This document shows, one piece after another, positions 1 to 44,479 of a stretch of 64,000 bases of DNA. Under the pieces are notes generated by a model, which saw only the letters and a list, made by a program, of their open reading frames with translations, did no database searches and was not told where the DNA came from. The position numbers and the translations under genes are program-made. The DNA is taken from contig NC_060025.1 of the NCBI RefSeq assembly GCF_021134715.1, positions 3,286,001 through 3,350,000 on the forward strand, in the 5' to 3' direction. How positions within the stretch are numbered: the first letter of the stretch is position 1; every line of letters begins with the position of its first letter. The DNA comes from Daphnia pulex. Taxonomy: Eukaryota > Arthropoda > Branchiopoda > Diplostraca > Daphniidae.

Positions 1-1155
1 CAAAGAAAAATTTCAGGACGATTAACATAACAAAAAAATAATAATTATGATAATAATAATTATAATAATACCGGTAATAAATACTTGGTAAGAGAAACAA
101 GGGGAAATAAGCGGAAACCTAACCATCATCTAATTTATCTTGCTGTGTGGCAAGGATAAACTTGAAGCACAGATTTCGGAGAAAAGTTGGCGAAACTATT
201 CCCTGCTGTAGATTATGTCGGAAGACTGCAAAGTTGATGAGCATGTGAATAAAATAACGCTATAAATCAATCGATGAGCAAAGGAAACTCCTCGGAAAAA
301 TAATTTCTTATTTGTAATTTTTCGTGACGTGATTTGATCATCAACAGAGGTGCGCACTATCCTCTAAATTACGTTTGCTTATGGAAAACTTTTGCAGATG
401 AGCAACAACTGGTTGTTGCTATCACGTTTCGGCATCACAATGAATGCAGTCAATGAGTTCGTGACAGTTCGTGATGTCCTTTACAACTCAACCCTGTGCT
501 AAGGAAAATTCAATTGATAGCCCACGACATTTATCAGTGATCCATCCAACTCATTTGCATTTTCCATTAGAATTCAAGGAATAAAACAAGTAAATCAGAA
601 AAAAAAACTTTAACGATAATTAGGAATGCAAAACGTATAATCTTTTATATTATGGGCAGGCAATGAAAACAAATCCAATTACATAAGACAAAACCGGAAA
701 TCGTCTTCTTCTTGGAAAATGAATTTCCCCGAATTAAATAATTGGGATGATGACGCTCATCGTTATGTAGTGAATGAAAACGAAACTCGATCCATCAGCT
801 CGATAAACGTAGTGCATGTTTAGTCAACCCAAAGATTAATTTGAACATCACGGAGGGGCGAAAATAACACAATGCCGAGAAACGGTATTAGTACAGATGG
901 GCGCCCGACAACCAGAGCAGCGCGTGGGAGGACAACATAACAAAATGACAACCAAAAAGAAATCAACGGCAATAAAAAAAAATTTTGACGTAAAGGCCAT
1001 CGGAATGTTCGATTCCCAATAAAAGCAATCACCGTGAGCCATATACCAAGAAATAGGGGGGTGGAGTACAAGATAAGAGAAAGAAATGATTTCGTTCGCT
1101 GCGCGATCTTCTTATTCACCGACCCGCCACCGGTCGTCCCTGCTACTCGTCGCGT
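1..1155. other. Outer arm sequence upstream of the distal promoter; no gene seen
   Basis: AT-rich sequence with AAT repeats at 40-70. It aligns to 43190-44479 in reverse orientation but with many substitutions and several indels, the largest being about 125 bp present only in arm 2. The reading frames here are short, are not conserved between the arms and do not resemble any protein I know. Confidence 0.7.
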
Positions 1156-1381
1156 TATATAAAAAAGAGCGAGAACTGCAGCCGTTAGTTGAACGGCGAC
1201 AGTCGACCCGCAAGCGTTCAGTCGACCAACATTTTCACAATTGACAAACGTCAACAAAATTTCTCCGATTGATTCTCGTCATACCTTTTCAGTCATCACC
1301 ACCTTTGCGAATCAACCGATTGCCAGCACAATCAACTCTTTGCAGCCTAGAAAACTATACAACTTTGAGCATCGTTTAAAG
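1156..1381 (+). promoter_or_regulatory. Candidate distal core promoter and noncoding first exon, arm 1
   Basis: A TATA box (TATATAAAA) starts at 1156. An initiator-like TTAGTT at 1185-1190 places its A about 31 bp downstream, the standard spacing, so transcription would start near 1187. The following 195 bp has no useful reading frame and ends at a good donor, AAAG/GTGAGT, after 1381. The nearest fitting acceptor in this orientation is before the chordin-like start codon at 9462, which would make an 8-kb first intron. TATA, initiator and donor are all kept in arm 2 although the surroundings have diverged. The link to the chordin-like gene is inferred; this could be a separate noncoding transcript. 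Confidence 0.5.
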
Positions 1382-4300
1382 GTGAGTCTCGACTTATTTT
1401 AACTACATCTTACCTGTCACCTAACAAGTCGCAAAATTCAATAGCAAATTAATTACCACCGTTTTCTCTACAACTTAATTTTCTTGCTGAATTTACAAGT
1501 CGGTTGAAGACTCTCAATTTGTTGGTCAATGAAAAGGAGTGAACTAAGATATTCCGATCGTGATATTCCTTTAAGTAATTTTTTTTATCGACATTCTTGC
1601 TTGGTGTAATTGAGACTAGACACATCATTCGATTTCATCAAATTTGTCGCTGTTGACTTTTAATCGATTTTTTTTTTCTGTTTCGGCTGTGCAAAAATAT
1701 ATGAATCAACACCCGATAAAACGTAAAACGAGATAACCTTTGAAACTGGTTGATGGCGGAATGGCGGAATTGTTATTTCTCGTCCATACCATCCGTTGCG
1801 AGTTGTCAAACTTGTTTTCATCTTCCTCGTCTTTCTTCCTTGGACGAGCTTAATGCCGCCGACTCTGAATAAGAGTTTCAGTGATTTGATTTGAATGAAT
1901 TACATGTAGCTCCTGCATGCACGTTATCAGGAGGCTTCCCCGCTTCCATCAGGGATTGTCGCCCTAGTTCCTCCACTAATTCTTCTTCTTCATGGCGGCC
2001 AACATTTACTAGCCCATCTTCACTAAGCACTTAGCACTGCTCCTGCTGATAATAATGCAACAGTCCTGTACAGCATCAGCAGTTAATGCACTGGTCATAT
2101 CCGTCGCCGTGACGAGAATACGTGATGAACGAATACACTCGACTCTGGAGCAGCACCTGCAAAATACTGTACACTAGTACAGGAGGAAAGAAAAACAATA
2201 ATGCATTTCTTGATTATTGTAATCTTGTAGTTCCGCTACTTTGCCGAGAAAAAAGAGTCCCATCAGACTCCCAGTAATTCTATTCGATGCGGTTTTCGTT
2301 TGTTTCTTTTTCACTTTTCATCTCGTCTACCGTGAAAAGCGCTACTGTTCGTGCACTCCTTGAAAAAGTACTAGCTGAGTATGACAAACGCTCGTCGACT
2401 CTAGTCGTCCTTGGATTTCTGACGGATGTTGTAGCAGAAATCGATCAAATTATTTCCGTGTGATAATATCATCTATGGAGCTATACTCCGGTCATAAGCG
2501 AAATACTACGTAATATCTCAATGCCGTCATCCACTGTTGCCGCGCCTGTTGTAGGTTACACGAAACCGCACGAAATTGAAATTCGACTCAAATATCAACA
2601 AAGTTGATCGGGTCCATTTGCCTTAGCTCCGACAAAATCCCAGCGTCTTAGGATGGCTGGCGCATTGTCGGGTTTTATTGATAATTACAATGTCAATTTC
2701 TTTGTGTGAAATGAAAATTTACTTTCAACAAAAACTATAAGTTTAGTTTCAAGAAGATTTTAATTTCGGTTTCTGTAATGTCGCCAAAGAGATAAGCACG
2801 CACATATTTGTCAAGAATCGAACCCGGATTGCCATTAAGATAAGAAAAAAGATCACGAAACCGGTTCAAGAATACAAATGACGTCCGGGAACGGTAAAAA
2901 ACCTAAAAATGCATTAACGTATTTCCTACAGAACTGAGATCTTACCAACCGGTTTCGCTATTCCCAATAGAATGTCTACAGTCATTTCACTTTTTTTTGG
3001 AAGGGGGGGGGGGGTCTGATGTAACTGCGCCGGTTTCGTGCCGCCCAAAAAAACCGCACCGCAACCGCCGAGTTGGTTATTGGAGGTGCAGCGCGTGTCC
3101 AAATGATAGATGAGATTCGTCCTCCCCCCCCCCCCCTCTACCCTGTATTCCGTCAAAGATTAGTCTAGGTCGGGGATTTCCTTATTCACTTTCTTCTTGT
3201 TTGCTTCCTCGATCTTTGGCATCGATAATATTTAACTGACATAGTTATTCCTCAACTCTAATAATAGGGACACACAATTCCGTGGTTTCTGGTGGACGGA
3301 GATTTAAACATACGTTGCCTTGGTGGTGAGGGAGGATTGAGGGGAATTTTTGGAATTTCTTTTATCTCACCATCCTTGACCTGGTATAGAGAAAGAATTA
3401 AAAGGTATTACCTTTTGGTCCAGGATAGACAAGGCACTCATCCATCACTCCATTCCGTTCAGTCCTCCCTTCCATCATTCTGATGCTGTTGGATTTTCTT
3501 TAATATCAGAGTTGAAACTTTCTTTCTTTTAAGGAGATCTTTTGATGGATGGGACTTGCTTCTGTCCAACCCTGGATGAACACTCCCTCCAACACAACCC
3601 CGACAACAAATGAATTGTTGTTGTTAGGGCAAACAGGTACAGTGCAGTTCTTTCGTCCCTACTGCATGTACATTTGAATGTACAATTTAGTGAACCACAG
3701 ATACCTTGCAAGTATACTGGCTTCAATTATTGTGCAGGCTACTCACCGAATACTTTGCTTATGTATCACCAGCATCCGCATGGATGATGTCTCTGTCTAT
3801 TGAGAGGCCAATGCCCCCCTCTTCTTGATTTCAGAATTGGCACAGTCCATATATGGCAGCTCTTGAATACGACTGGAATATGGACGGATAGATGATGGAT
3901 GAACAATCCGGAATTTTCAGTGGTAAGCCTAAAAATGGGGAACAGCAGACAAGATAGAAAAATTGCAAAATCAATTGAGCAACAACAACACGGTGTATAA
4001 TGAATGAGAATCAAATTGATGCCATACCACTTCGCCGTATAGTATATATTTAGGAGATCCCGATTCCTTTGAATTTTGTGAAACGTCAACGAAAGTGTCT
4101 GGTGTGTTGCTGTACAACAAATCTCCGGTTTCTTTTTATTGCTGGCGTATCGCCTTGCAGCTGCTCTAACACGTCGAATAACTCGACTGCGTCCATGGGG
4201 CTTCCATTGCACAAAAGCACACGATGATGATGGGCCAAATCACCCGAGCCGATGCTGTTGCTGCATGCTGCAATTCTACACTGCGGATAATAACGACGCC

Positions 4301-7300
4301 TTATTATTACGTGACCGAACGAGCGGGCGGGCCAGCCAGCGGAGACAGAAGAAACGATAGGAGCGGAGAGAAACATTATTTGGCACACGGGAAATGTAAA
4401 TTCTTTGATACGAATGCGAGATATTAGGGGAAACGGAGGAACTCGAACAGACTGCTGTTGCTGCAGGGCTCTCGGATTCTCTTCGTCCCATTGAGCTGCT
4501 GCGGCGGTGCCATGAAAAACCCCATCGTAAAATGTGTGTCTGCCTTTTGTCGTGGCTCTGCTGATGGCGCAATCGTGATCGATTGTGCAGCGCTGGCGCG
4601 TTTCAGAAACGCGGTGATGCAACACGTTACAACATATTAAATGCGGCCGCACTTTTCAGCAGTTCACTCGCCAACTGGGACGAAAAACGATTGAACTGGT
4701 CCTTCGTTTTGGTGATAAAATATTTCGACTATTGCTGCAGGCGTCTCAGTACCTGCCTATTGACTGCTGGCAATGGTCAGCATTCACGTAACCAGTTGTG
4801 TCATAAATCATTGACGTTAAGTCATCAAACGGTCAGAGAGTCACTGAACGTTGTTGTCATGGAGGGTCAGAAAAGATTCGGAGAAATCCAACAAGTTCTT
4901 GGAAAATGAGGTCCTGACAGCCAAAGTATAGATTTACTAAAGGCCGAAATCCACCAGCAGCGACTGTTTGCTCCGTTCTTTAAATTCGTAGAATTGAGAG
5001 AAAGTTGGGTGATTTAATTTAATTTGCCAGTTGGAAATTTTTATCAATTATTAAGGACGTCACTTTGAACGACGACAGCGAGTTGCTATGGAATTTCACC
5101 GGCATTCCATGACCCATATCGGGCGGTACTCTCTCCGATCGAAATGAAGGTCTCAAATGGACAGTAACAACAACTGCAATGAGCCAAAATTACAGCAGCC
5201 GTGCGATTCGCGGATGTCACTAATAAGAGCGGCAGTGCTGCCAAACAGCGAAAAGCCCTGAGCTCTAAACATGGAAACTCGGGGACACTGGCAAAATTGA
5301 GAGAAACCAGACAGACCAAACTGAGTGAAATGAGCAGCTGAACCACAAAATATGAAATTAACCGTGCTCAACTGACAGCTGCTCTTTTAATCATTTCCGA
5401 GGCGCATGGATTCAAATTTCTTCAAGTACATTAATCATCACTCCATGATCTCCCAACGCCGAGGTTATCATTTAGAGGGGGGAATTAAGAAGACGGCATT
5501 CTGTTATCTTACGTGATCGCTACGTATTTTCTTGATTGTTATCCAGATCAACAGTATATCAAACAAAATCGCAATAAATCGATTGATTGATAATAAGAAA
5601 TGGTCTGTTTTTGAAAAAAAAGTTGAATTGTGACATTTTATTAGCCGATTGTGACGTGCGCGTGAGTGAAGCCAATCTATTTTTAGTTGAAAGAACAGAA
5701 CGCTCAGAGCAGTTCCTGGATGACGACGAGCCACGGTCGAGACAGAATGGCAATTAAATAATCATATCGTCGCCAAAAGAATTTAAAAGGGGCACAACAC
5801 TATAAGCTAATGGAAAGTCATAACCACAGGATATGGTGGAGACTGGAGAGGAGGTGGTCTGGGTTGTCTGACAATAGCAATAAAGAAAGGATGATTGAGC
5901 TCGATGCAACTTGTAAATTAATTTTAACAATTTGGAAATCATTACGTTCGCTAATAACAAACGCCATCTGCGTGAAATCTATAAAGACCCCATTTCGTGA
6001 CATATTATTAAGGTTTATAAAGCGAAAAACACCGCGCTTTAGTTGCCGTGTTGCATATTGTAAAGTTGGCACTGACCTGAGTCAAGGCAGAGTGGCAGCC
6101 TACCAAAAATTTGGATTCATCCAGCGGGTTCCATCCCTATTCAAGATCAGCAGATCATCTGTCTTTGGGATTCTTGGAAAAGATCGGAGAAAAATAGATC
6201 GAGGGGGGAAATATTCCGTCGTCTGTCAAAATTAAGAGCCAGTGCGTTTTGTACCAGCAGGGTTTTGCTACTTTGTCAGGGCCGGGGTTTTGCTACTTTG
6301 TCAGACTAGTCAGAGCGTCCAAGATGCCAGAATCTTAGAAACTGCTTCTGATATCATAAGGCGTCGTGTGATGGAATCAATTTTGTCCTGCGGACTTTTC
6401 GTTGTTGCTGTGTGATTGATTGTCACCGCGTCACGTCAGACGACTCTCTGCAGCAGGAGACAAACAACAAAATGGACGTCACATTAGAAATTATTACGTG
6501 AATTTCTTTATGGAATTTGGGGCATTTCGCGATCCCGCGTACGAAGCGGCAATTCGCAGAAAATGTCTACCAGCATCGACCAGATGATAATACCGTGTCT
6601 AAATGTGAGGACATTAATTAAACAGCAGCAATCTTTTGGCAGATACAAAATAAAATATTGAAATGAAAAAAAAAAAAAAAAAAAAAAAAACAAAAAAAAA
6701 CAAAACAAACGGAAAGCTAAAATTAGGACCGTGCGATTCCCGGAAGGAAATCGTAACGCGCCAAACACGAAAACAATAAACTGTGAAATCTTGGCAACTC
6801 CACATCGAAAAATCAATCATCACAAATACCCGAAATGAGATTCACATTCGACTTGTGTCCAGTTATTTATTCCCCGAAGGAAAAATAATTTCCAAACCAA
6901 TTTCATAATTTCACATCAAATTTCGACGTTTGGTGCTGTCGAGTGATTCATCCATCACTCGCCTGTGGAACGGCCACCGGTTGTGTTGAAACCAAAGATG
7001 ACGTATGATTAGCCTAAAATTCCTTTGTGTGTGACACATCAGCAGCGGCCGTCGTGAAATGAACAGCGCTACTATTATGTAAAAACAAACTCGGCCATGT
7101 TTTTTTTGGTTTGAGTTCATCTACGATAGAAAAAAGTCTAAAAACGTAAAGAAAATCGATAACTTATGGACGGATGACGAATAGGCTGTAAATCAATGAA
7201 ATTGACGCAAACCATTAACTAGAACATTGGATTATTCCAACGAGATCCTGTGTGCCGATCCCGCACGGTCCAGTGCAGCATCCTGGTCGTGTCATCTTTT

Positions 7301-8524
7301 TGGTCCCCGACTGGCGAGGAATGATGAACGGACCCATTAGTCAATGCGCCAATCGCTGGCCGAACGGACCGACCGGGGACTCTTTTCTTCTTTGCAGACG
7401 CGAACAGCATCAAGGAAAACTCTGATCCATCTATAGTCAGTCGGCGAAGAGACGCGGGAAAAATCGACGTCGGCCACTGTTGTTTCCTCAGACGTTATTC
7501 AAGAGACACGACTCTATACAAGTGAACGGAGCTGTATATTCGTCATTTTATTCAAATAAATCACCCAGCAGCCCGTCAGTCACGGCAAAATCGTCTGTTT
7601 TATCACGGAGGCGGCACGTTTAAAACGATCGTTGGAAAAAAATCTAAAAAGAAGAAGAAGATGACGAAAATGAGAAAAACAAATACGACAAAATCGAAGA
7701 ATCAAAAAATCCAAAAATCGAGTCGTGACATCCGCTTTGTGTCTCCCGTTCTCTCCACACACTTATACATCATCATCACGGACAGCATCACATGTCGGCT
7801 TGCTCTGTGTGTCTCCGTCCGGGAAACCCAGTTTTGGAATGTAAGTCGTGAGGGACCGGGACAAAAGAGACGACGACAATAAAAGATGAAGGGAGAAAAA
7901 AGAGAAGCAAATTGAATTGAAAATGTGTGGCCGAGAGACAAACGAAAAACAAACACGTTAACAGGGGAAATGTATGGAGATTTCAAAACAAAAAACAAAA
8001 ACAAAAAACAAAAACAAAACAAGACGCCCTATTTTTCTAAACATAGCAAGAAAATTTAGAAGAGCAGCAGAAAAATGCAAATTCCGTTCGGCGTCTCAAT
8101 CGACGAAATTCGCTTCATCATCAACGGTCGAATCGCCAGACTTTTCTGTAGAATTCGGAATTTCATTAGACAAAGACGCTAGAGACGCTAGAGCTCGGAT
8201 GCGATATTATTACGTCAAAGGCTAAAAGGGAATCAAGTGTCGGCGTCTTTCTGGATCTAGTGGTCCTTTGCTGCTTTTTGATGGATTGCGACATGTTCAT
8301 TGCGTCACTCGGAAGCTGCTGGTTCATTGTGTACGTGGAGTCAAATTCGTTTTCTTTGACATTGTACCCAATTTTTTTTAGTCGAATAAAGAACACGACG
8401 ACAGCACAATCGACATGCTGAAACTTGCTGATGGAAATCCCGCTGCTGATGGACACTGGATCAGAGCTGCTGACGGTTAATTACGAATACTGACGTCGGA
8501 GAAATATTAATTCGCCGCGATGTG
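1382..8524. other. Noncoding stretch between distal and proximal promoters, arm 1
   Basis: No convincing gene. The reading frames are short, mirror each other between arms and lack recognisable domains. Simple sequence includes a G12 run at 3003-3014, a C13 run near 3124-3136 and an A25 run at 6666-6690. The A-run is 27 long in arm 2. A segment near 7100 differs by about one base between arms, and near 5165-5190 arm 2 carries an extra copy of a short GGCTCATT-type motif. If the distal promoter serves the chordin-like gene, this is its first intron. Confidence 0.6.
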
Positions 8525-8591
8525 TATATATAGGGCCTACTGAATTCGTTCATTCGTCAAACACGACGGTCAATCGGTCATAGATAATAAC
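8525..8591 (+). promoter_or_regulatory. Candidate proximal core promoter and 40-bp noncoding first exon, arm 1
   Basis: The TATA box TATATATA lies at 8525-8532. A perfect arthropod initiator TCATTC at 8550-8555 puts its A (8552) 27 bp further on. Forty bases later, at 8592, there is a strong donor, AAC/GTGAGT. The matching acceptor is the pyrimidine-rich stretch ending in CGCAG at 9447-9451, just before the chordin-like start codon. The same elements occur unchanged in arm 2. The spacing and the exact initiator make this the best-supported promoter of the chordin-like gene. Confidence 0.65.
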
Positions 8592-9461
8592 GTGAGTCAC
8601 TGGTCCTGATGGCTGAATGGAAGAAACGGCCGGCAGCAGGCGCGTTTTCTCGCTGATTCGATATCTCTGACAATTCCCGGGATTTCCTGGAACCAGGATG
8701 TCGTATAATGGGATATTTGGCACGCGTTGGCTGCAGTCAAGTCAAAAAAACGAAAATCTGGTCGCGCATCTATTCATCTGCTGTAAGTATTTAATGGCCA
8801 CGGATATTATAAGAAAAGGGAAAAGAAAAAGAGACGAGAGGTACAAACGCGAGTCTCTGTGCGTGTGTTGCTGTGCCGGGGTCTATAGTCTTGTCTGTCT
8901 GTTGGACGATTGCCGAAGGATAGAATGAAACAGAAAGAGAAAGGGGAGGAAAGAGGAGGGCGAAGGAATGAGAGAATGGAGCGAGAAGAGAATTTCCTTT
9001 TTTCTTATTTTTTAAAGAAGAAAGAAAATGGGAAAACATAACACGCGCTACCATTCGACCAGGTCTCGCCAGTCTTCCACTGACCGGCATCGCCTCCGCA
9101 CCTCACAGAAAAACGGCAACGAGCCAAAATCTGTTGACGATCCGATCCTCGCGTCGTGTGTGATTCCATTTGTGTCGTCGAGCATCATTTGTTACTGGAA
9201 TACGAAATTACCGAGGGAAATTCAGTTCCGTTTCGAGACGTGACGATTTTCGTGCAATCAAAAACAAAATAAACATAAAAACAAAAAACAAAACAAAAAG
9301 TGGTGCCCATCATTTGACTTTTGTTCTCCTCCTATCTCCTTGCACAGAGTGTCACCTTTAAAGGTATCTGATAGGCGGCACGCTGGTAAATTTTAAAACA
9401 AGATTTTCATTATTCTCGTTTTTTTGTTTTGTTTTCTCTGTTTGATCGCAGCAGCAGCCGA

Positions 9462-12400
9462 ATGACAGCAGCGTCAGCCAATTCCGCCATCATGGGTCGT
9501 CAGCAGCAGCAGCAGCAAAAACAACAAGGCCGGATGATGACGACAACAACCCTGACCGCAGCCGTCCCGACGATATTGCTCCTCCTGTCGACATTCTCAT
9601 CGCTGATGGCAGCAGGTAAAACAAAGAATACGCCATGCAGTGACATCATCGTTTCCGTCGCGTCTGTTGGTTGACGTCGACTGTTGACTCGTTCGCGGCG
9701 ACGAGCGGCAATCGAGTGGAAAAGGAAGGAAGCAATGAATGAGCTCGGTTAGGCTGGCGCCGTGCAATAATCGTAGGCATACATCCAGGGTTGTTCTTTT
9801 CCGTGAGTGGCCCCATAAAGCCGCATTGACATTCGTGCCAATTTCTCCAGCAGCCTTTGTTTCATTCGTGTCCATTTGAGGAGCATTATAGGTGCGGCAA
9901 CTCGCAGTTAATACAATCAAAGTTGAATATTCATAACGAACCGATAACGGACAGACAAATATAATATGCCACGCACAGTACGAGGGTTTGGTTCCGCTGT
10001 CAAAGGGCGCAGTTTGCGTCGCCAGTTGTAAGCGTCAAAACAAACGACACTTTTAGAATCGTAAATGTGCTGTAGGAAAAGTCCGAAAAGAAGAGGAAGA
10101 AAAAAGAGGCGCGTAGTTTTATGGCGATTTTTTAGAAAACCAAGACAATAAAATCCATCGGAGACGACGCAACAAAAAATCAACAAACGCCTTGAATAGA
10201 TAAAAAACGCACAGTCTACCAATTGTGAATTCTCCAATTCTCCATTGAAATCCTGACGCATTCGATATAGAAAATTTCATTTCAGTTCTTTTTTTATATA
10301 AGGAATATTGAATATTGAGTGTGGAAATGGGATCATGCGGCCAAGGTATGGCGGACAAATGAACCAAAGCCCAAAATAATTGGAAAAAGGAGAACCCCAA
10401 AAAAGTAAAAAAAAAACCTCAAAAGCCAAGAAAAAGTCGAAAAAGAAAAAAATCTATAGAGAAAAGAGGGTTTGGTTTGGGTTTTGGCTCTCTCTCTATT
10501 CCCTGGGCTTGTTGTAATGTTGTATCCATAAAACGAGTGGAATGCCTGTCCATCTTAATAACAGTCATCATCAACAGAGACGATACCCCCGTATCTTTGA
10601 TGGGGTCTCTGCTGGTCCTCTCACGAGTTGGAAAAGGGTTTCGGTTTCACCTTGTTTCCCTCACACCACACGACAACACCCCGTCCCAGTGCCCTTTTCC
10701 CTTTGGGTTTTGAGCTGATGGAGAAAATGGGGGTGGGCTGGGCTGGGCCGGGCCGGGTTGCATCGAGAGGGACAGCAGAGGAGGCCATCCCGTCTCTGAT
10801 GTGAACCTATAACATGTTGCACATGTAGTGGTGGTGGTGGTGGCATCGTACAACAGACTCTGCTGCTGTCTCTCTCTGCGTGACGCCAACCACCACCATG
10901 CAGGGTCCATCAACTTGATGTAAAGTGTTTCTTCTTTTTCACATAGCCTCTTTTTTGTCTCTCTCTTGTTGGTTGGTTGGATGGTAACGTGTGGTTGTAA
11001 TAGTAGCCTAGTGGTTGGTGTTGTTGTAGTCTTTGAGCGTAGTAGTAGCCTAGTAGTATATAGCTAGTGGTGGCAGGAGCCGACTGTAGTAGACTAAAAA
11101 TAGAAGTGACTTTTGGACGAGAGCAGCTAGGGGACGGAGGGTTTCTTCTTCTACTTTTGCCTCGCGGATGATTTCAAACGTCACTAGGACAGACAATGTA
11201 TGTTAGGTGAAGAGCCGACCTTCTCTTGACCGTCTGGCATCGCTGACTTGGTCTCTCCTCCTCCTCTCACCAAGTCTAAACGCAGACGGCGGGAGGTCAA
11301 CGTCATCCTCGGTTCACTTGTTGCTATATTTAACGTTTTCCCATCACGCCGATGCGCTGGATGGCGCTGGATGGAGTTAGAGAGAGACAACTGCCATGGA
11401 CTCGAGACTCGGACCGGAGGAACGAGGAACGAAATGCTGGGTCTCCGTTTCAACTTGTACGCGGGATCGGAATGAATGAATTCATTTGCGACAGACTAGA
11501 AAGAGGCGACCATAGAAAAAAGCTTATATTAGCGCTATATAGATGGGGGGGGGGGGGGAGGGGAATATATTTTCGCGTATTTACCGGCGTTTGACGTTGG
11601 CCAAGTTATTCCCGTGGCCGCAGCAGATCGAGACAACACCGAGCGTTTAGACTCGAGAGGCGGCCGGTCGTTAATTTTTACACCCTCCCATAATCACGTA
11701 AGCCATCGAGTTAAGACGGGACGGGACGGGAGAGAGAAAGAGAGAAGAAAAGAACACCGAAATAAATAAGACCCGGCAAAACATCACAGACACAACATAA
11801 CAAAACAACCCGAAATAATCAGAATAATTAACGAGCTAATGAACCGACAGTTCCGGCACAACAACCTCGCGAGCTCCAAAGAGTTTTCTCTCTTCTTTTT
11901 TCTTTTTCTTTTCTTTATTTTTGTGGTTTTCCTTTCTTCAGCACGATCCTCCCTTCACGTTTCGTTATTCCCTCGCATTTCGGCCCATTTCTTTTTATCG
12001 CCTCCTCATCTCTGAATTCTGAAATTCCTCGTCACATTCAATTGTCCTTTCCCCTCCGTGCGAGAGAGGAGGACGACGAATGGGTTTTGGCGATGCCAAT
12101 TAGAAAATTACAGACGAGCGGAACGGATGAAATTCAAGCCAAAAAACACAATCGATGCGTGTGTGTGTGTGTGTATACATCGATGAGTCTGGGGGGGGGG
12201 GGGGGGCGAAGAATCTGATCCACCACCACCAGCACCGACAAAATCACACAGACGAAAACAAAACACATCACGCACAGGAATTAATGGAATATCGAACCGG
12301 ATGTCGATGATGGAAAGGCGAGATGGAAGCAATCGGAATCCCATCCAACTTGCAGTCCGGTTACAACTCTTACATAAATTACATAAATCAAAGTAATAAT

Positions 12401-20397: not shown

Positions 20398-20432
20398 ATC
20401 AAGTCACCCACTTTTTTTCACGGTTGGCCATT

Positions 20433-23400: not shown

Positions 23401-23803
23401 CATCAATGAGTCATTCATTGGCGAAAACACAATCAAACTTCAACCACCAAAATCAGAAGCCCGATAGAACAGAGAAGTAGAATAGCAATTATAACCAGGT
23501 TGTATAATATTGGAACTAAAGGGGGCGCTTTATCCACTTGCCTCTTATTTTTGACGATTTTTTTAAGTGGAGTGTACAATCAGAGAAAAATGCCAAATTA
23601 CACATTTATACAGATAGATAAATAATTGTTTGCCGTCAGACAACTGTCATTGAAACAGATCATTTGATTGATGTAAAGCGGAAGTAACCACTGCAGTACG
23701 GGCAATGAAATCGTAAGAGATACTAGATAGGGTATGTGTTCTTTGCATTGAGTTCAGTTGATGGAGTTCGAGTAAATAATGTGTAGACTGATGCAATTGT
23801 TTT
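20433..23803. other. Single-copy palindrome spacer holding both 3' ends
   Basis: These 3371 bp separate the inverted arms and are not themselves inverted repeats of each other. The two chordin-like genes point into the spacer from both sides, and it begins 35 bp after each stop codon. It must therefore supply two unrelated 3' untranslated regions. It is AT-rich. I found no domain-bearing reading frame, no clear transposon ends and no RNA gene. A small inverted motif CGGGT...ACCCG occurs at about 20530-20560. Confidence 0.8.
20795..20800 (+). terminator. Candidate polyadenylation signal for chordin-like copy A
   Basis: AATAAA occurs about 400 bp after the copy A stop codon, and a second near-copy starts about ten bases later in an A-rich stretch. 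It lies in the spacer, so copy B cannot use it. For copy B the only nearby variant on the minus strand is a TATAAA at about 23603-23608. Confidence 0.4.
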
Positions 23804-23838
23804 AATGGCCAACCGTGAAAAAAAGTGGGTGACTTGAT

Positions 23839-32800: not shown

Positions 32801-34790
32801 GAAACGGAGACCCAGCATTTCGTTCCTCGTTCCTCCGGTCCGAGTCTCGAGTCCATGGCAGTTGTCTCTCTCTAACTCCATCCAGCGCCATCCAGCGCAT
32901 CGGCGTGATGGGAAAACGTTAAATATAGCAACAAGTGAACCGAGGATGACGTTGACCTCCCGCCGTCTGCGTTTAGACTTGGTGAGAGGAGGAGGAGAGA
33001 CCAAGTCAGCGATGCCAGACGGTCAAGAGAAGGTCGGCTCTTCACCTAACATACATTGTCTGTCCTAGTGACGTTTGAAATCATCCGCGAGGCAAAAGTA
33101 GAAGAAGAAACCCTCCGTCCCCTAGCTGCTCTCGTCCAAAAGTCACTTCTATTTTTAGTCTACTACAGTCGGCTCCTGCCACCACTAGCTATATACTACT
33201 AGGCTACTACTACGCTCAAAGACTACAACAACACCAACCACTAGGCTACTATTACAACCACACGTTACCATCCAACCAACCAACAAGAGAGAGACAAAAA
33301 AGAGGCTATGTGAAAAAGAAGAAACACTTTACATCAAGTTGATGGACCCTGCATGGTGGTGGTTGGCGTCACGCAGAGAGAGACAGCAGCAGAGTCTGTT
33401 GTACGATGCCACCACCACCACCACTACATGTGCAACATGTTATAGGTTCACATCAGAGACGGGATGGCCTCCTCTGCTGTCCCTCTCGATGCAACCCGGC
33501 CCGGCCCAGCCCAGCCCACCCCCATTTTCTCCATCAGCTCAAAACCCAAAGGGAAAAGGGCACTGGGACGGGGTGTTGTCGTGTGGTGTGAGGGAAACAA
33601 GGTGAAACCGAAACCCTTTTCCAACTCGTGAGAGGACCAGCAGAGACCCCATCAAAGATACGGGGGTATCGTCTCTGTTGATGATGACTGTTATTAAGAT
33701 GGACAGGCATTCCACTCGTTTTATGGATACAACATTACAACAAGCCCAGGGAATAGAGAGAGAGCCAAAACCCAAACCAAACCCTCTTTTCTCTATAGAT
33801 TTTTTTCTTTTTCGACTTTTTCTTGGCTTTTGAGGTTTTTTTTTTACTTTTTTGGGGTTCTCCTTTTTCCAATTATTTTGGGCTTTGGTTCATTTGTCCG
33901 CCATACCTTGGCCGCATGATCCCATTTCCACACTCAATATTCAATATTCCTTATATAAAAAAAGAACTGAAATGAAATTTTCTATATCGAATGCGTCAGG
34001 ATTTCAATGGAGAATTGGAGAATTCACAATTGGTAGACTGTGCGTTTTTTATCTATTCAAGGCGTTTGTTGATTTTTTGTTGCGTCGTCTCCGATGGATT
34101 TTATTGTCTTGGTTTTCTAAAAAATCGCCATAAAACTACGCGCCTCTTTTTTCTTCCTCTTCTTTTCGGACTTTTCCTACAGCACATTTACGATTCTAAA
34201 AGTGTCGTTTGTTTTGACGCTTACAACTGGCGACGCAAACTGCGCCCTTTGACAGCGGAACCAAACCCTCGTACTGTGCGTGGCATATTATATTTGTCTG
34301 TCCGTTATCGGTTCGTTATGAATATTCAACTTTGATTGTATTAACTGCGAGTTGCCGCACCTATAATGCTCCTCAAATGGACACGAATGAAACAAAGGCT
34401 GCTGGAGAAATTGGCACGAATGTCAATGCGGCTTTATGGGGCCACTCACGGAAAAGAACAACCCTGGATGTATGCCTACGATTATTGCACGGCGCCAGCC
34501 TAACCGAGCTCATTCATTGCTTCCTTCCTTTTCCACTCGATTGCCGCTCGTCGCCGCGAACGAGTCAACAGTCGACGTCAACCAACAGACGCGACGGAAA
34601 CGATGATGTCACTGCATGGCGTATTCTTTGTTTTACCTGCTGCCATCAGCGATGAGAATGTCGACAGGAGGAGCAATATCGTCGGGACGGCTGCGGTCAG
34701 GGTTGTTGTCGTCATCATCCGGCCTTGTTGTTTTTGCTGCTGCTGCTGCTGACGACCCATGATGGCGGAATTGGCTGACGCTGCTGTCAT
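23839..34790 (-). CDS. Chrdl: Chordin-like secreted protein with three VWC domains, copy B (10 coding exons)
   Basis: Mirror copy of the gene in arm 1, on the opposite strand. In transcript order the coding exons are 34637-34790, 29506-29645, 29314-29410, 28827-29068, 25696-25789, 25473-25575, 25134-25333, 24668-24915, 24123-24282 and 23839-24005. I saw no coding difference from copy A, so the predicted 534-residue product is the same: signal peptide, three VWC domains and the chordin-like tail. All splice sites are intact, so this is not a decayed pseudogene. Differences are noncoding: two bases in the acceptor tract before the start codon (TTTTGTCGCAG instead of TTTGATCGCAG), a longer GAA tract in intron 4, one extra base in intron 8 and an unrelated 3' untranslated region. 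The gene converges on copy A across the spacer. Confidence 0.85.
26011..26101 (+). repeat. (GAA)n microsatellite, arm 2
   Basis: About 30 GAA units (about 91 bp), the mirror of the TTC tract in arm 1 and about five units longer. It lies in intron 4 of chordin-like copy B. Confidence 0.95.
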
Positions 34791-35660
34791 TCGGCTGCTG
34801 CTGCGACAAAACAGAGAAAACAAAACAAAAAAACGAGAATAATGAAAATCTTGTTTTAAAATTTACCAGCGTGCCGCCTATCAGATACCTTTAAAGGTGA
34901 CACTCTGTGCAAGGAGATAGGAGGAGAACAAAAGTCAAATGATGGGCACCACTTTTTGTTTTGTTTTTTGTTTTTATGTTTATTTTGTTTTTGATTGCAC
35001 GAAAATCGTCACGTCTCGAAACGGAACTGAATTTCCCTCGGTAATTTCGTATTCCAGTAACAAATGATGCTCGACGACACAAATGGAATCACACACGACG
35101 CGAGGATCGGATCGTCAACAGATTTTGGCTCGTTGCCGTTTTTCTGTGAGGTGCGGAGGCGATGCCGGTCAGTGGAAGACTGGCGAGACCTGGTCGAATG
35201 GTAGCGCGTGTTATGTTTTCCCATTTTCTTTCTTCTTTAAAAAATAAGAAAAAAGGAAATTCTCTTCTCGCTCCATTCTCTCATTCCTTCGCCCTCCTCT
35301 TTCCTCCCCTTTCTCTTTCTGTTTCATTCTATCCTTCGGCAATCGTCCAACAGACAGACAAGACTATAGACCCCGGCACAGCAACACACGCACAGAGACT
35401 CGCGTTTGTACCTCTCGTCTCTTTTTCTTTTCCCTTTTCTTATAATATCCGTGGCCATTAAATACTTACAGCAGATGAATAGATGCGCGACCAGATTTTC
35501 GTTTTTTTGACTTGACTGCAGCCAACGCGTGCCAAATATCCCATTATACGACATCCTGGTTCCAGGAAATCCCGGGAATTGTCAGAGATATCGAATCAGC
35601 GAGAAAACGCGCCTGCTGCCGGCCGTTTCTTCCATTCAGCCATCAGGACCAGTGACTCAC

Positions 35661-35727
35661 GTTATTATCTATGACCGATTGACCGTCGTGTTTGACGAAT
35701 GAACGAATTCAGTAGGCCCTATATATA
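35661..35727 (-). promoter_or_regulatory. Candidate proximal core promoter and noncoding first exon, arm 2
   Basis: Exact counterpart of 8525-8591. On the minus strand there is TATATATA at 35720-35727, initiator TCATTC with its A at 35700, and a 40-bp exon ending at 35661 before the donor GTGAGT. It would feed the acceptor just upstream of the copy B start codon at 34790. Confidence 0.65.
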
Positions 35728-38700
35728 CACATCGCGGCGAATTAATATTTCTCCGACGTCAGTATTCGTAATTAACCGTCAGCAGCTCTGATCCAGTGTC
35801 CATCAGCAGCGGGATTTCCATCAGCAAGTTTCAGCATGTCGATTGTGCTGTCGTCGTGTTCTTTATTCGACTAAAAAAAATTGGGTACAATGTCAAAGAA
35901 AACGAATTTGACTCCACGTACACAATGAACCAGCAGCTTCCGAGTGACGCAATGAACATGTCGCAATCCATCAAAAAGCAGCAAAGGACCACTAGATCCA
36001 GAAAGACGCCGACACTTGATTCCCTTTTAGCCTTTGACGTAATAATATCGCATCCGAGCTCTAGCGTCTCTAGCGTCTTTGTCTAATGAAATTCCGAATT
36101 CTACAGAAAAGTCTGGCGATTCGACCGTTGATGATGAAGCGAATTTCGTCGATTGAGACGCCGAACGGAATTTGCATTTTTCTGCTGCTCTTCTAAATTT
36201 TCTTGCTATGTTTAGAAAAATAGGGCGTCTTGTTTTGTTTTTGTTTTTTGTTTTTGTTTTTTGTTTTGAAATCTCCATACATTTCCCCTGTTAACGTGTT
36301 TGTTTTTCGTTTGTCTCTCGGCCACACATTTTCAATTCAATTTGCTTCTCTTTTTTCTCCCTTCATCTTTTATTGTCGTCGTCTCTTTTGTCCCGGTCCC
36401 TCACGACTTACATTCCAAAACTGGGTTTCCCGGACGGAGACACACAGAGCAAGCCGACATGTGATGCTGTCCGTGATGATGATGTATAAGTGTGTGGAGA
36501 GAACGGGAGACACAAAGCGGATGTCACGACTCGATTTTTGGATTTTTTGATTCTTCGATTTTGTCGTATTTGTTTTTCTCATTTTCGTCATCTTCTTCTT
36601 CTTTTTAGATTTTTTTCCAACGATCGTTTTAAACGTGCCGCCTCCGTGATAAAACAGACGATTTTGCCGTGACTGACGGGCTGCTGGGTGATTTATTTGA
36701 ATAAAATGACGAATATACAGCTCCGTTCACTTGTATAGAGTCGTGTCTCTTGAATAACGTCTGAGGAAACAACAGTGGCCGACGTCGATTTTTCCCGCGT
36801 CTCTTCGCCGACTGACTATAGATGGATCAGAGTTTTCCTTGATGCTGTTCGCGTCTGCAAAGAAGAAAAGAGTCCCCGGTCGGTCCGTTCGGCCAGCGAT
36901 TGGCGCATTGACTAATGGGTCCGTTCATCATTCCTCGCCAGTCGGGGACCAAAAAGATGACACGACCAGGATGCTGCACTGGACCGTGCGGGATCGGCAC
37001 ACAGGATCTCGTTGGAATAATCCAATGTTCTAGTTAATGGTTTGCGTCAATTTCATTGATTTACAGCCTATTCGTCATCCGTCCATAAGTTATCGATTTT
37101 CTTTACGTTTTTAGACTTTTTTCTATCGTAGATGAACTCAAACCAAAATAAAACATGGCCGAGTTTGTTTTTACATAATAGTAGCGCTGTTCATTTCACG
37201 ACGGCCGCTGCTGATGTGTCACACACAAAGGAATTTTAGGCTAATCATACGTCATCTTTGGTTTCAACACAACCGGTGGCCGTTCCACAGGCGAGTGATG
37301 GATGAATCACTCGACAGCACCAAACGTCGAAATTTGATGTGAAATTATGAAATTGGTTTGGAAATTATTTTTCCTTCGGGGAATAAATAACTGGACACAA
37401 GTCGAATGTGAATCTCATTTCGGGTATTTGTGATGATTGATTTTTCGATGTGGAGTTGCCAAGATTTCACAGTTTATTGTTTTCGTGTTTGGCGCGTTAC
37501 GATTTCCTTCCGGGAATCGCACGGTCCTAATTTTAGCTTTCCGTTTGTTTTGTTTTTTTTTGTTTTTTTTTTTTTTTTTTTTTTTTTTTCATTTCAATAT
37601 TTTATTTTGTATCTGCCAAAAGATTGCTGCTGTTTAATTAATGTCCTCACATTTAGACACGGTATTATCATCTGGTCGATGCTGGTAGACATTTTCTGCG
37701 AATTGCCGCTTCGTACGCGGGATCGCGAAATGCCCCAAATTCCATAAAGAAATTCACGTAATAATTTCTAATGTGACGTCCATTTTGTTGTTTGTCTCCT
37801 GCTGCAGAGAGTCGTCTGACGTGACGCGGTGACAATCAATCACACAGCAACAACGAAAAGTCCGCAGGACAAAATTGATTCCATCACACGACGCCTTATG
37901 ATATCAGAAGCAGTTTCTAAGATTCTGGCATCTTGGACGCTCTGACTAGTCTGACAAAGTAGCAAAACCCCGGCCCTGACAAAGTAGCAAAACCCTGCTG
38001 GTACAAAACGCACTGGCTCTTAATTTTGACAGACGACGGAATATTTCCCCCCTCGATCTATTTTTCTCCGATCTTTTCCAAGAATCCCAAAGACAGATGA
38101 TCTGCTGATCTTGAATAGGGATGGAACCCGCTGGATGAATCCAAATTTTTGGTAGGCTGCCACTCTGCCTTGACTCAGGTCAGTGCCAACTTTACAATAT
38201 GCAACACGGCAACTAAAGCGCGGTGTTTTTCGCTTTATAAACCTTAATAATATGTCACGAAATGGGGTCTTTATAGATTTCACGCAGATGGCGTTTGTTA
38301 TTAGCGAACGTAATGATTTCCAAATTGTTAAAATTAATTTACAAGTTGCATCGAGCTCAATCATCCTTTCTTTATTGCTATTGTCAGACAACCCAGACCA
38401 CCTCCTCTCCAGTCTCCACCATATCCTGTGGTTATGACTTTCCATTAGCTTATATAGTGTTGTGCCCCTTTTAAATTCTTTTGGCGACGATATGATTATT
38501 TAATTGCCATTCTGTCTCGACCGTGGCTCGTCGTCATCCAGGAACTGCTCTGAGCGTTCTGTTCTTTCAACTAAAAATAGATTGGCTTCACTCACGCGCA
38601 CGTCACAATCGGCTAATAAAATGTCACAATTCAACTTTTTTTTTTCAAAAACAGACCATTTCTTATTATCAATCAATCGATTTATTGCGATTTTGTTTGA

Positions 38701-41700
38701 TATACTGTTGATCTGGATAACAATCAAGAAAATATGTAGCGATCACGTAAGATAACAGAATGCCGTCTTCTTAATTCCCCCCTCTAAATGATAACCTCGG
38801 CGTTGGGAGATCATGGAGTGATGATTAATGTACTTGAAGAAATTTGAATCCATGCGCCTCGGAAATGATTAAAAGAGCAGCTGTCAGTTGAGCACGGTTA
38901 ATTTCATATTTTGTGGTTCAGCTGCTCATTTCACTCAGTTTGGTCTGTCTGGTTTCTCTCAATTTTGCCAGTGTCCCCGAGTTTCCATGTTTAGAGCTCA
39001 GGGCTTTTCGCTGTTTGGCAGCACTGCCGCTCTTATTGGTGACATCCGCGAATCGCACGGCTGCTGTAATTTTGGCTCATTGGCTCATTGCAGTTGTTGT
39101 TACTGTCCATTTGAGACCTTCATTCGATCGGAGAGAGTGCCGCCCGATATGGGCCATGGAATGTTGGTGGAAATTCCACAGCAACTCATCGCTGTCGTCT
39201 TTCAAAGTGACGTCCTTAATATTTTATAAAAATTTCCAACTGGCAAATTAAATTAAATCACCCAACTTTCTCTCAATTCTACGAATTTAAAGAACGGAGC
39301 AAACAGTCGCTGCTGGTGGATTTCGACCTTAGTAAATCTATACTTTGGCTGTCAGGATCTCATTTTCCAAGAACTTGTTGGATTTCTCCGAATCTTTTCT
39401 GACCCTCCATGACAACAACGTTCAGTGACTCTCTGACCGTTTAATGACTTAACGTCAATGATTTAGGTGACACAACTGGTTACGTGAGTGCTGACCATTG
39501 TCAGCAGTCAATAGGCAGGTACTGAGACGCCTGCAGCAATAGTCGAAATATTTTATCACCAAAACGAAGGACCAGTTCAATCGTTTTTCGTCCCAGTTGG
39601 CGAGTGAACTGCTGAAAAGTGCGGCCGCATTTAATATGTTGTAACGTGTTGCATCACCGCGTTTCTGAAACGCGCCAGCGCTGCACAATCGATCACGATT
39701 GCGCCATCAGCAGAGCCACGACAAAAGGCAGACACACATTTTAAGATGGGGTTTTTCATGGCACCGCCGCAGCAGCTCAATGGGACGAAGAGAATCCGAG
39801 AGCCCTGCAGCAACAGCAGTCTGTTCGAGTTCCTCCGTTTCCCCTAATATCTCGCATTCGTCTCAAAGAATTTACATTTCCCGTGTGCCAAATAATGTTT
39901 CTCTCCGCTCCTATCGTTTCTTCTGTCTCCGCTGGCTGGCCCGCCCGTCTGTTCGGTCACGTAATAATAAGTCGTCGTTATTATCCGCAGTGTAGAATTG
40001 CAGCATGCAGCAACAGCATCGGCTCGGGTGATTTGGCCCATCATCATCGTGTGCGTGCTTTTGTGCAATGGGAAGCCCCATGGACGCAGTCGAGTTATAC
40101 GAAGTATATCAGAGCAGCTGCAAGGCGATACGCCGGCAATAAATAGAAACCGGAGATTTGTTGTACAGCAACACACCAGACACTTTCGTTGACGTTTCAC
40201 AAAATTCAAAGGAATCGGGATCTCCTAAATATATACTATACGGCGAAGTGGTATGGCATCAATTTGATTCTCATTCATTATACACCGTGTTGTTGTTGCT
40301 CAATTGATTTTGCAATTTTTCTATCTTGTCTACTGTTCCCCATTTTTAGGCTTACCACTGAAAATTCCGGATTGTTCATCCATCATCTACCCGTCCATAT
40401 TCCAGTCGTATTCAAGAGCTGCCATATATGGACTGTGCCAATTCTGAAATCAGGAAGAGGGGGGCATTGGCCTCTCAATAGACAGAGACATCATCCATGC
40501 GGATGCTGGTGATACATAAGCAAAGTATTCGGTGATTAGCCTGCACAATAATTGAAGCCAGTATACTTGCAAGGTATCTGTGGTTCACTAAATTGTACAT
40601 TCAAATGTACATGCAGTAGGGACGAAAGAAACTGCACTGTACCTGTTTGCCCTAACAACAACAATTCATTTGTTGTCGGGGTTGTGTTGGAGGGAGTGTT
40701 CATCCAGGGTTGGACAGAAGCAAGTCCCATCCATCAAAAGATCTCCTTAAAAGAAAGAAAGTTTCAACTCTGATATTAAAGAAAATCCAACAGCATCAGA
40801 ATGATGGAAGGGAGGACTGAACGGAATGGAGTGATGGATGAGTGCCTTGTCTATCCTGGACCAAAAGGTAATACCTTTTAATTCTTTCTCTATACCAGGT
40901 CAAGGATGGTGAGATAAAAGAAATTCCAAAAATTCCCCTCAATCCTCCCTCACCACCAAGGCAACGTATGTTTAAATCTCCGTCCACCAGAAACCACGGA
41001 ATTGTGTGTCCCTATTATTAGAGTTGAGGAATAACTATGTCAGTTAAATATTATCGATGCCAAAGATCGAGGAAGCAAACAAGAAGAAAGTGAATAAGGA
41101 AATCCCCGACCTAGACCAATCTTTGACGGAATACAGGGTAGAGGGGGGGGGAGGACGAATCTCATCTATCATTTGGACACGCGCTGCACCTCCAATAACC
41201 AACTCGGCGGTTGCGGTGCGGTTTTTTTTGGGCGGCACGAAACCGGCGCAGTTACATCAGACCCCCCCCCCCCCCCTCCAAAAAAAAGTGAAATGACTGT
41301 AGACATTCTATTGGGAATAGCGAAACCGGTTGGTAAGATCTCAGTTCTGTAGGAAATACGTTAATGCATTTTTAGGTTTTTTACCGTTCCCGGACGTCAT
41401 TTGTATTCTTGAACCGGTTTCGTGATCTTTTTTCTTATCTTAATGGCAATCCGGGTTCGATTCTTGACAAATATGTGCGTGCTTATCTCTTTGGCGACAT
41501 TACAGAAACCGAAATTAAAATCTTCTTGAAACTAAACTTATAGTTTTTGTTGAAAGTAAATTTTCATTTCACACAAAGAAATTGACATTGTAATTATCAA
41601 TAAAACCCGACAATGCGCCAGCCATCCTAAGACGCTGGGATTTTGTCGGAGCTGAGGCAAATGGACCCGATCAACTTTTTTTTTTATGTTTGAGTCGAAT

Positions 41701-42980
41701 TTCAATTTCGTGCGGTTTCGTGTAACCTACAACAGGCGCGGCAACAGTGGATGACGGCATTGAGATATTACGTAGTATTTCGCTTATGACCGGAGTATAG
41801 CTCCATAGATGATATTATCACACGGAAATAATTTGATCGATTTCTGCTACAACATCCGTCAGAAATCCAAGGACGACTAGAGTCGACGAGCGTCTGTCAT
41901 ACTGAGCTAGTACTTTTTCAAGGAGTGCACGAACAGTAGCGCTTTTCACGGTAGACGAGATGAAAAGTGAAAAAGAAACAAACGAAAACCGCATCGAATA
42001 GAATTACTGGGAGTCTGATGGGACTCTTTTTTCTCGGCAAAGTAGCGGAACTACAAGATTACAATAATCAAGAAATGCATTATTGTTTTTCTTTCCTCCT
42101 GTACTAGTGTACAGTATTTTGCAGGTGCTGCTCCAGAGTCGAGTGTATTCGTTCATCACGTATTCTCGTCACGGCGACGGATATGACCAGTGCATTAACT
42201 GCTGATGCTGTAAGTACAGGACTGTTTTATCAGCAGGAGCAGTGCCGACGAGGCGAAGTCAAAGTCGGCAAACGTGAGTGACAACCAAATCCGGTCGACA
42301 ACAACACAAGAACATTTCTCTTCTATATTGTTCTCTGCATGGTGATGATGGGCTAGTAAATGTTGCCCGCCTTGAAGAAGAATTATTGGACGGAATAAAT
42401 GAACTAGGGCAATCCCTGATGGAAGCCTCATGATAACGTGCATGTAGGAGCTACAAGCTACATGTAATTCATTCAAATCCAATCACTAAACCGCTTATTC
42501 AGAGTCAGACATTGAGCTAGTCCAAGGAAGAAAGACGAGGAAAGATAAAAACAAGTTTGACAACTCGATCGCAACGGATGGTATGGACGAGAAATAACAA
42601 TTCCGCCATCAACCAGTTTCAAAAGTTATCTCGTTCAGTCGGGTGTTGATTCATATATTTTCGCACAGCCGAAAGAAGAAAAAAAAAATCGATCGAAAGT
42701 CAACAGCGACAAATTTGATGAAATCGAATGATGTGTCTAGTCTCTATTACGTCAAGCAGGAATGTCGATAAAAAAAAATTACTTTAAGGAATATCACGAT
42801 CGGAATATCTTAGTTCACACCTTTTCATTGACCAACAAATTGAGAAACCCTTCAACCGACTTGTAAATTCAGCAAGAAAATTAATTTGTAGAGAAAACGG
42901 TTTTGATTTGCTATTGAATTTTGCGACTTCTTAGGTGAAGATGGACAGGTAAGATGTAATTGAAAGAAGTCGAAACTCAC
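35728..42980. other. Noncoding stretch between proximal and distal promoters, arm 2
   Basis: Counterpart of 1382-8524. It carries a T27 run at 37563-37589 and a C-run near 41264-41276. No gene was recognised. Divergence from arm 1 rises clearly beyond about 38.5 kb, with substitutions, small indels and a short tandem duplication near 39075-39090. Confidence 0.6.
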
Positions 42981-43185
42981 CTTTTAGCGATGCTTAAACT
43001 TGACCAGTTTACTATGGCAGTGATCTTATGGTGGCAATCGGTTGATTCGCAAAGGTGGTGCTGAGTGAAAAGGTATGATGTTGACGTTTGCGTTTGTCAA
43101 CTCTGAAAATGTTGGTCGACTGAATGCTTGCGGGTCGACTGTCGCCGTTCAACTAACGGCTGCAGTTCTCGCTCTTTTTTATATA
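42981..43185 (-). promoter_or_regulatory. Candidate distal core promoter and noncoding first exon, arm 2
   Basis: Minus-strand counterpart of 1156-1381. The TATA box (43177-43185), initiator TTAGTT (start near 43154) and donor AAAG/GTGAGT (exon end 42981) are all kept. The exon is 174 bp here and 195 bp in arm 1, because the sequence between start site and donor has indels. The first 100 bp or so around the start site is nearly identical in the two arms while the flanks are not. Confidence 0.5.
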
Positions 43186-44479
43186 AAGCGACGAGTAGCA
43201 GGGACGACCGGTGGCGGGTCAGCGAATAAGAAGTTCGCGCAGCGCACGAAATCATTTCTTTCTCTCATCTTGTACTCCACCCCTCCCCCCATTTCTTGGT
43301 ATACATGGCTCACGTTGATTCCTCTTATTGGGAGTCGAACATTTTAAAGACCTTCTGGCAGAGATTTCTTTCTTGCTGTTGATTTCTTTTTGGTTCTCAT
43401 TTTGTTAAGTTGTCCTCCCACGCGCTGCTCTGGTTGTCGTTGAGCGATCTGTTTATGCTAATACCGTTTCTCGGTATTGTGCTAGCCTATTTACGATCAT
43501 GTAATTAACTCTGGCAATTCATCACCGGACGATTGTCAACGACTCTTCGATCCCATGGCATTTTCAGCAAGTGCCGAGTCATTTGTTTCCAGTTCCCCCC
43601 CTCCCCCCACGCCCCTCCGTGATGTTCCAATTAATCTATTGGTTGACTAAACATGTACGACGTTTATCGAGCAGATGGATCGAGTTTCGTTTTCATTCAC
43701 AACATTCCGCTGAGCGTCCCAATTATTTAATTCAGGGAAATTCATTTTCCAAGAAGAAGACGATTTCCGGTTTTGTATTATGTAATTTGATTTGGTTTCA
43801 TTGCCTGCCCACAATACCTAAAAGATTATAAGTTTTGCATTCCTAACTATCGTATAAGTTTTTCTGATTTACTTGTTTTATTCCTTGAATTCTAATGGAA
43901 AATGCAAATGAGTTGGATGGATCACTGATAAATGTCGTGGGCTATCAATTGAATTTTCCTTAGCACAGGGTTGAGTTGTAAAGGACATCACGAACTGTCA
44001 CGAACTCATTGACTGCATTCATTGTGATGCCGAAACGTGATAGCAACAACCAGTTGTTGCTCATCTGCAAAAGTTTTCCATAAGCAAACGTTATTTAGAG
44101 GATAGTGCGCACCTCCGTTGATGATCAAATCACGTCACGAAAAATTGAAAATAAGAAATTATTTAGATAAATATATATTATTAAATTATCTGAGAGTTTT
44201 CCTGTGCTCATCGATTGATTTATGTCGTCATTAAAATCATATGCTCATGAACTTTGCAGTCTCCCGACATAATCTACTGCAGGGTATAGTTTCACCAATT
44301 TTTCCCCGAAATCTGTGCTTCAAGGTACATCCTTGCGTCACAGCAAGATAAATTAGATGGTTAGGTTTTCCCCTTATTTCTCTTACCAAGTAGCCTATTT
44401 ATTATTATTATTATTTTTTATTATTATTTTATTTTTGTTTTGTTTTGTTATCGTCTGATTGTCCTGACATTTTTCTTTG

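Follow-up and report, generated by a model that had tools for sequence, protein, structure and literature searches.

Palindromes whose arms undergo gene conversion are best known from sex chromosomes. On the mammalian X and Y, long inverted arms are more than 99% identical, exceed their flanks in GC-content and convert one another, GC being raised in the arms of converting primate X palindromes (PMC8981503, available text). Asexual animals, among them Adineta vaga and Folsomia candida, provide a second class, in which inverted gene duplicates occur together with clonal reproduction and gene conversion has been proposed; Daphnia pulex stood outside that palindrome screen, annotation being lacking (PMC7953838, available text).

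Here we describe a palindrome of about 53.9 kb in the D. pulex genome. It shares with its mammalian counterparts the long inverted arms of more than 99% identity and the arm GC above that of the flanks, and each arm holds a complete gene, as in gene-bearing mammalian palindromes. It differs in that identity steps down toward the outer ends and in its host, which is not known to have sex chromosomes; conversion between its arms is read here from within one genome. Like the palindromes of asexual animals it consists of inverted gene duplicates in an organism that reproduces clonally, but with one gene and a fragment per arm. Among the matches listed, and to the extent that the sources were available, the locus is apparently undescribed in the literature on D. 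pulex palindromes, gene conversion and Daphnia chordin-like genes, and in that on inverted or tandem duplicates, autosomal palindromes and diversity; the available part of PMC13322756 mentions neither chordin, BMP nor LOC124201617.

Results

Anatomy of the palindrome

The window, the whole stretch of 64,000 nucleotides that was analysed (C9:3286001-3350000), belongs to a D. pulex assembly of 133,188,837 bases in 13 contigs. A first-pass annotation had reported a giant inverted repeat at 1-44479, with arms of about 20.4 kb, sharp inner boundaries and a 3.4-kb spacer. Self-BLAST of the window recovers the repeat: 2034-20432 matches 42245-23804, reversed, at 99.4% over 18,454 columns (41 mismatches, 22 gap openings), with a bit score (32,754) far above chance. 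The arms are thus inverted, 18.4 kb of them at more than 99% identity, and their inner ends are as sharp as claimed, at 20432 and 23804, on either side of a spacer of 3,371 bp that is single-copy in the assembly. The further claim that every stretch is mirrored holds for the main piece; reverse-complement matches run through most of the arms, but the outer pieces within the window are weaker (865-2029 at 83%, 1-860 at 86%), two 4-bp segments (861-864 and 2030-2033) fall in gaps between BLAST pieces, and identity is stepped rather than uniform.

The outer limits proved to be merely the window edge, which cuts the left arm. BLAST of the window against itself, with 60 kb of left flank and 30 kb of right flank attached, carried the outer match on to window coordinates -4700 (left) and 49174 (right), over 5,650 columns at 93%. 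True arm lengths are 25,133 bp (left) and 25,371 bp (right), and the palindrome occupies C9:3281300-3335174; the outer 6.7 kb of each arm lies below the >99% identity of the main piece. Its parts are as follows.

1-20432, + strand: left arm, part inside the window, continuing outside to -4700 (C9:3281300); self-BLAST with and without flanks
20433-23803, no strand: unique spacer, 36% GC, single full match in the genome
23804-49174, - strand: right arm, putative source copy, entering intact TAF11; self-BLAST
1-2029, + strand: strongly diverged zone, left arm; with 1 kb outside the window, 247/2,938 = 8.4%
2030-5250, + strand: intermediate zone, left arm; 1.3% divergence, 42/3,209
5251-20432, + strand: homogenised core, left arm; 15,182 aligned bases, with 3 substitutions and 6 indel events relative to the right arm
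23804-39008, - strand: homogenised core, right arm

In a genome search that ignores simple repeats, the spacer gave one full match (itself) and one 35-bp match on contig C6. For the diverged piece 42300-44500 the mirror is the sole other long match in the genome, apart from about 50 bp on C4. Both inner arm ends carry GGTTGGCCATT and then separate, 35 bp past both stop codons.

Scaffolding errors can make artificial palindromes, a warning given in the available text of PMC7953838, and our reading is drawn from assembled sequence. An alternative haplotype might have been joined in inverted orientation and its core made identical by polishing; where arms are nearly identical, consensus polishing could remove the differences between them. 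The 154 kb examined (window plus flanks) contain no N, which argues against such a misjoin, and a hairpin error at the level of the read should yield evenly identical arms with no unique spacer between them. The divergence between the arms, considered below, leaves this explanation unlikely.

Each arm carries the same chordin-like gene

Each arm contains a complete gene for an identical protein of 535 amino acids, which combines three VWC domains with a chordin-like C-terminus. The first-pass reading of a gene-bearing arthropod palindrome is borne out, each arm holding one complete developmental-type gene.

9462-20397, + strand: chordin-like gene, left copy; ten coding exons, splice-consistent, read by eye and script; match to P0001
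Left copy, exons 1-5: 9462-9615, 14607-14746, 14842-14938, 15184-15425, 18448-18541
Left copy, exons 6-10: 18662-18764, 18904-19103, 19322-19569 (or from 19319, as in P0001), 19954-20113, 20231-20397
23839-34790, - strand: chordin-like gene, right copy; mirror image, coding exons identical

The encoded protein is 100% identical to P0001, "uncharacterized protein LOC124201617 isoform X1 [Daphnia pulex]", whose eighth exon begins 3 bp upstream of our modelled start and so adds one residue. Nine exons, with ends as first modelled, occur letter for letter in both arms. Exon 1, placed by a tblastn search with the N-terminal part of P0001, lies inside an identical run of 8,705 columns and is matched alike in both arms; the same coding exons and open frame are therefore present twice. 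Two of the three core substitutions are adjacent, at 9444 and 9445, 17-18 bp upstream of the start codon, and the third is at 5524; the DNA of the two copies is nearly identical over the 4.2 kb before the start codons. The genes are convergent, tail-to-tail. Intron 1 (9650-14600) is present in both arms and probably holds a dispersed repeat, since C12 has a match to 1.4 kb of it at 83% and C8 one to a short piece.

Pfam finds three VWC stretches in the arm protein and lists no CHRD domain, the combination of VWC repeats without CHRD that characterises the chordin-like family. Like the arm protein, CHRDL proteins have three VWC domains and a common C-terminal region: the alignment with P0010 extends through residue 534 of P0001, and in the closest named relatives outside Daphnia, insect chordin-like proteins 1 and 2, the C-terminus is also aligned (37% identity with Anabrus simplex chordin-like protein 1). 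The best solved relative is Chordin (E 1.9e-24, residues 146-287 of the partial arm protein). The sequence thus points to kinship with BMP antagonists, BMP binding being putative here, and a hydrophobic N-terminus seen by eye suggests that the protein is probably secreted. The Daphnia proteins bear names that vary between sources: uncharacterized, NELL1-like, and VWC and EGF domain-containing.

Identity with short gastrulation/chordin, first suspected from the VWC motifs, was rejected: the sole CHRD match found in the genome is on C2, and Pfam lists none for the arm gene. No match came from NCBIfam, whose library covers bacteria and archaea, with P0001, or from Rfam with the window, and reading all six frames for a handful of Wnt, TGF-beta, hedgehog and homeobox motifs revealed no convincing gene.

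A third copy of the gene

With P0001 as query the genome yielded 30 matches, 29 of which belong to the two palindrome copies or to a third, diverged copy 0.77 Mb away (C9:2529070-2533940); the remaining one, on C2, is weak. The third copy encodes a protein 87% identical to that of the arms (410/471 aligned), with dN 0.076 and dS 0.476, values that indicate purifying selection averaged over the two lines. In a family tree built from 9 of 19 protein hits plus two D. pulex copies, the D. pulicaria protein P0003 groups with the third copy (support 100/100); the branching of the palindrome gene, P0002 and the third copy is settled only in part. Among the 19 hits the palindrome gene has no D. pulicaria counterpart with its own row, the P0001 row comprising five member sequences.

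One arm ends inside an apparently intact TAF11

The first-pass annotation, partly supported overall, had included neither this third copy nor a TAF11 fragment nor the stepped divergence. The features beyond the chordin-like gene are these.

48621-49556, - strand: TAF11 gene, apparently intact, with the right arm's outer end inside it; Pfam PF04719, tblastn
about -4700 to -4148, outside the window: 3' part of TAF11 in the left arm, only from about residue 130 on; tblastn
50066-50509, + strand: frame matching the TFIIH p62 N-terminal domain, in the right flank outside the arms; Pfam PF08567
C9:3279974-3280789: open frame adjoining the left breakpoint; weak resemblance, below cutoff, to the N-terminus of Fanconi anaemia A

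TAF11 is truncated on one side only. Because the right TAF11 is readable from its start and the left arm has the 3' part only, we take the right arm as probably the source and the left arm as the copy. In D. sinensis the chordin-like gene and TAF11 bear locus tags close to each other, GHT06_020782 and GHT06_020797, their contigs being equal in length (8,418,570), GHT06_020782 being a match to the D. pulex chordin-like copies as a group, palindrome or third.

Divergence between the arms is stepped

One way to describe the relationship between the arms is to count differences in successive 500-bp bins of the left arm. From the outer end, bins 1-11 differ by 3.5, 0.6, 0.0, 6.8, 5.0, 1.0, 2.7, 3.0, 7.3, 6.7 and 8.3%, and bins 12-22 by 9.6, 11.2, 7.4, 1.6, 0.8, 0.4, 0.8, 2.4, 1.2, 1.8 and 0.2%; in the inner 29 bins the difference is zero in all but one, which stands at 0.4%. 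Segment limits, set after the bins had been inspected, gave the following differences.

-4700 to -4230: 8/471
-4229 to -3400: 2/830
-3399 to -2600: 57/775
-2599 to -1950: 11/649
-1949 to -1000: 23/919
-999 to 2029: 247/2,938
2030 to 5250: 42/3,209
5251 to 20432: 3/15,182

From 0.02% in the inner 15 kb, divergence thus steps to 1.3% in the next 3 kb and then to a patchwork of 0.2-8.4%, with sharp falls around positions 2030 and 5250. The outer arm (6,642 columns, 408 differences) also contains identical patches of 772 columns (-4116 to -3344) and 263 columns (-2273 to -2010). None of 2,000 shuffles produced a run as long as 772 (largest 196); without the TAF11 end the longest run is 756, again unmatched in 2,000 shuffles (largest 209). 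Identity tracts therefore exceed those of uniform divergence. The comparison is independent of the segment limits, except that the outer arm is defined as positions up to 2029; it assumes independence of sites, and conversion, constraint and allelic patches may all give long runs.

Arm-to-arm gene conversion in an old inverted duplication would produce stepped divergence of the kind observed. How do other explanations fare? Published silent diversity within a population is 1.83% (0.0183), for a population other than that of the sequenced clone, and clones TCO and PA42 differ by 5.1-5.7% (PMC5427498, available text); silent divergence between D. pulex and D. obtusa is 13.4% (PMC12926508, available text). 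That the 8.4% patch is more than four times the silent diversity of this other population argues against a misjoined haplotype, as do the many indels of the outer patches (7.4 and 8.4%, about fourfold or more the allelic value) and the abrupt drops near 2030 and 5250.

The pulex group hybridises (PMC11754708, available text), and patchy divergence can be allelic. A young palindrome might accordingly span two divergent haplotypes, for example through introgression, the patchwork being allelic with little or no conversion between arms. This demands locally extreme haplotype divergence beside 15 kb with three substitutions, and we consider it improbable, slightly more so than an assembly artefact. 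Less credible still, and by some way, is an old inverted pair in which a single recent replication-based event, in place of recurrent conversion, duplicated the inner part anew: the core does form a single block of near-identity, but the several divergence classes and the separate identical outer patches (772 and 263 columns) point to several events.

If old duplication followed by conversion is correct, published rates of 2.3-5.7e-9 substitutions per site and generation (PMC12926508 and PMC5427498, available text) would date the most diverged segment (JC 0.089) to about 8-19 million generations. For the core (0.0002) they would give about 17,000-43,000 generations; both figures are orders of magnitude.

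GC-content

GC climbs with homogenisation from the outer arm (40.9-41.0%) through the intermediate zone (43.5-43.8%) to the core (46.7%); the spacer stands at 36.2% and the flanks at 41.4 and 39.9%. Introns 2-9 of the palindrome gene have 47.8% GC against 38.1% in the third copy, third codon positions being nearly alike (74.5 vs 71.5%). Where the palindrome gene and the third copy differ at third codon positions, the tilt to GC is only slight (53 vs 39), and at sites that differ between the arms GC and AT are balanced (152 and 152). The gradient fits GC-biased conversion, its direction unpolarised, and gene content may be another cause; a D. obtusa study describes 40 conversion events without GC bias (PMC12926508, available text).

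Discussion

The most likely reading is that the palindrome is genuine, an old inverted duplication whose arms later converted each other. We hold with reasonable confidence that the right arm served as source and that conversion was most recent over the inner 15 kb, a reading that comes from one genome, with direction and age lacking outgroup polarisation. About 25 kb, from within TAF11 to 35 bp beyond the chordin-like stop codon, would have been duplicated in inverted orientation, and the copy (left arm) placed beside the original (right arm) with 3.4 kb between them. The duplication would be old, its least converted parts being 8-9% apart; the arms would later have paired and converted each other, most recently in the inner 15 kb, with decay at the outer edges. 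The outcome would be convergent genes with identical coding sequence: two tail-to-tail genes for a probably secreted VWC-domain protein, from which we infer doubled dosage.

Selection may have kept the palindrome, conversion repairing a dose-sensitive chordin-like signalling gene during the clonal phases of a cyclically parthenogenetic host in which the locus would be autosomal; the convergent genes may also yield double-stranded RNA by read-through. We regard such maintenance as doubtful.

The kind of structure is already known; what makes this case useful is its place and the clarity of its stepped record. Mutation-accumulation estimates for D. pulex have been published (cited in the available text of PMC12926508), and a 54-kb palindrome in this species would make conversion rate directly measurable in clonal lines. 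Homology between the arms stops 35 bp beyond the stop codon, so the two otherwise identical genes should differ in their 3' ends, and the expression of the two copies could be separated by 3'-tag RNA data.

Repeats inside and beside the palindrome

The near-identical inner parts of the two arms differ at few places, one of which is the length of a TTC/GAA microsatellite in intron 4 of the chordin-like gene, where the right-arm copy is 15 bp longer than the left.

18151-18254, left arm: TTC/GAA microsatellite
25983-26101, right arm: TTC/GAA microsatellite

Part of intron 1 (12226-13623), for which a genome search returned an 83% match at C12:3289396-3290712, is probably a dispersed repeat carried inside both arms. 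Self-BLAST of the window plus flanks also detected another palindrome in the left flank, at C9:3234311-3238150 (window coordinates -51689 to -47850, left of base 1). It is 3.9 kb long at 94.9% identity and has no spacer; direct repeats adjoin it.

Neighboring genes and the third copy

C9:3252253-3253194: glypican gene (Pfam E 2.2e-50), ~28 kb left of the main palindrome
54909-55943, minus, right flank: frame with a Pfam match to DNA polymerase delta subunit Cdc27 (POLD3-type)
C9:2529070-2533940, minus: third, diverged chordin-like copy

Glypicans act in BMP signalling, and the presence of one near a chordin-like gene is therefore curious. Third-position differences between the third copy and the palindrome gene are uneven, ranging from 3 to 20 per 40 codons; this patchiness might stem from sporadic conversion across the 0.77 Mb between the loci, or from constraint that varies along the gene.
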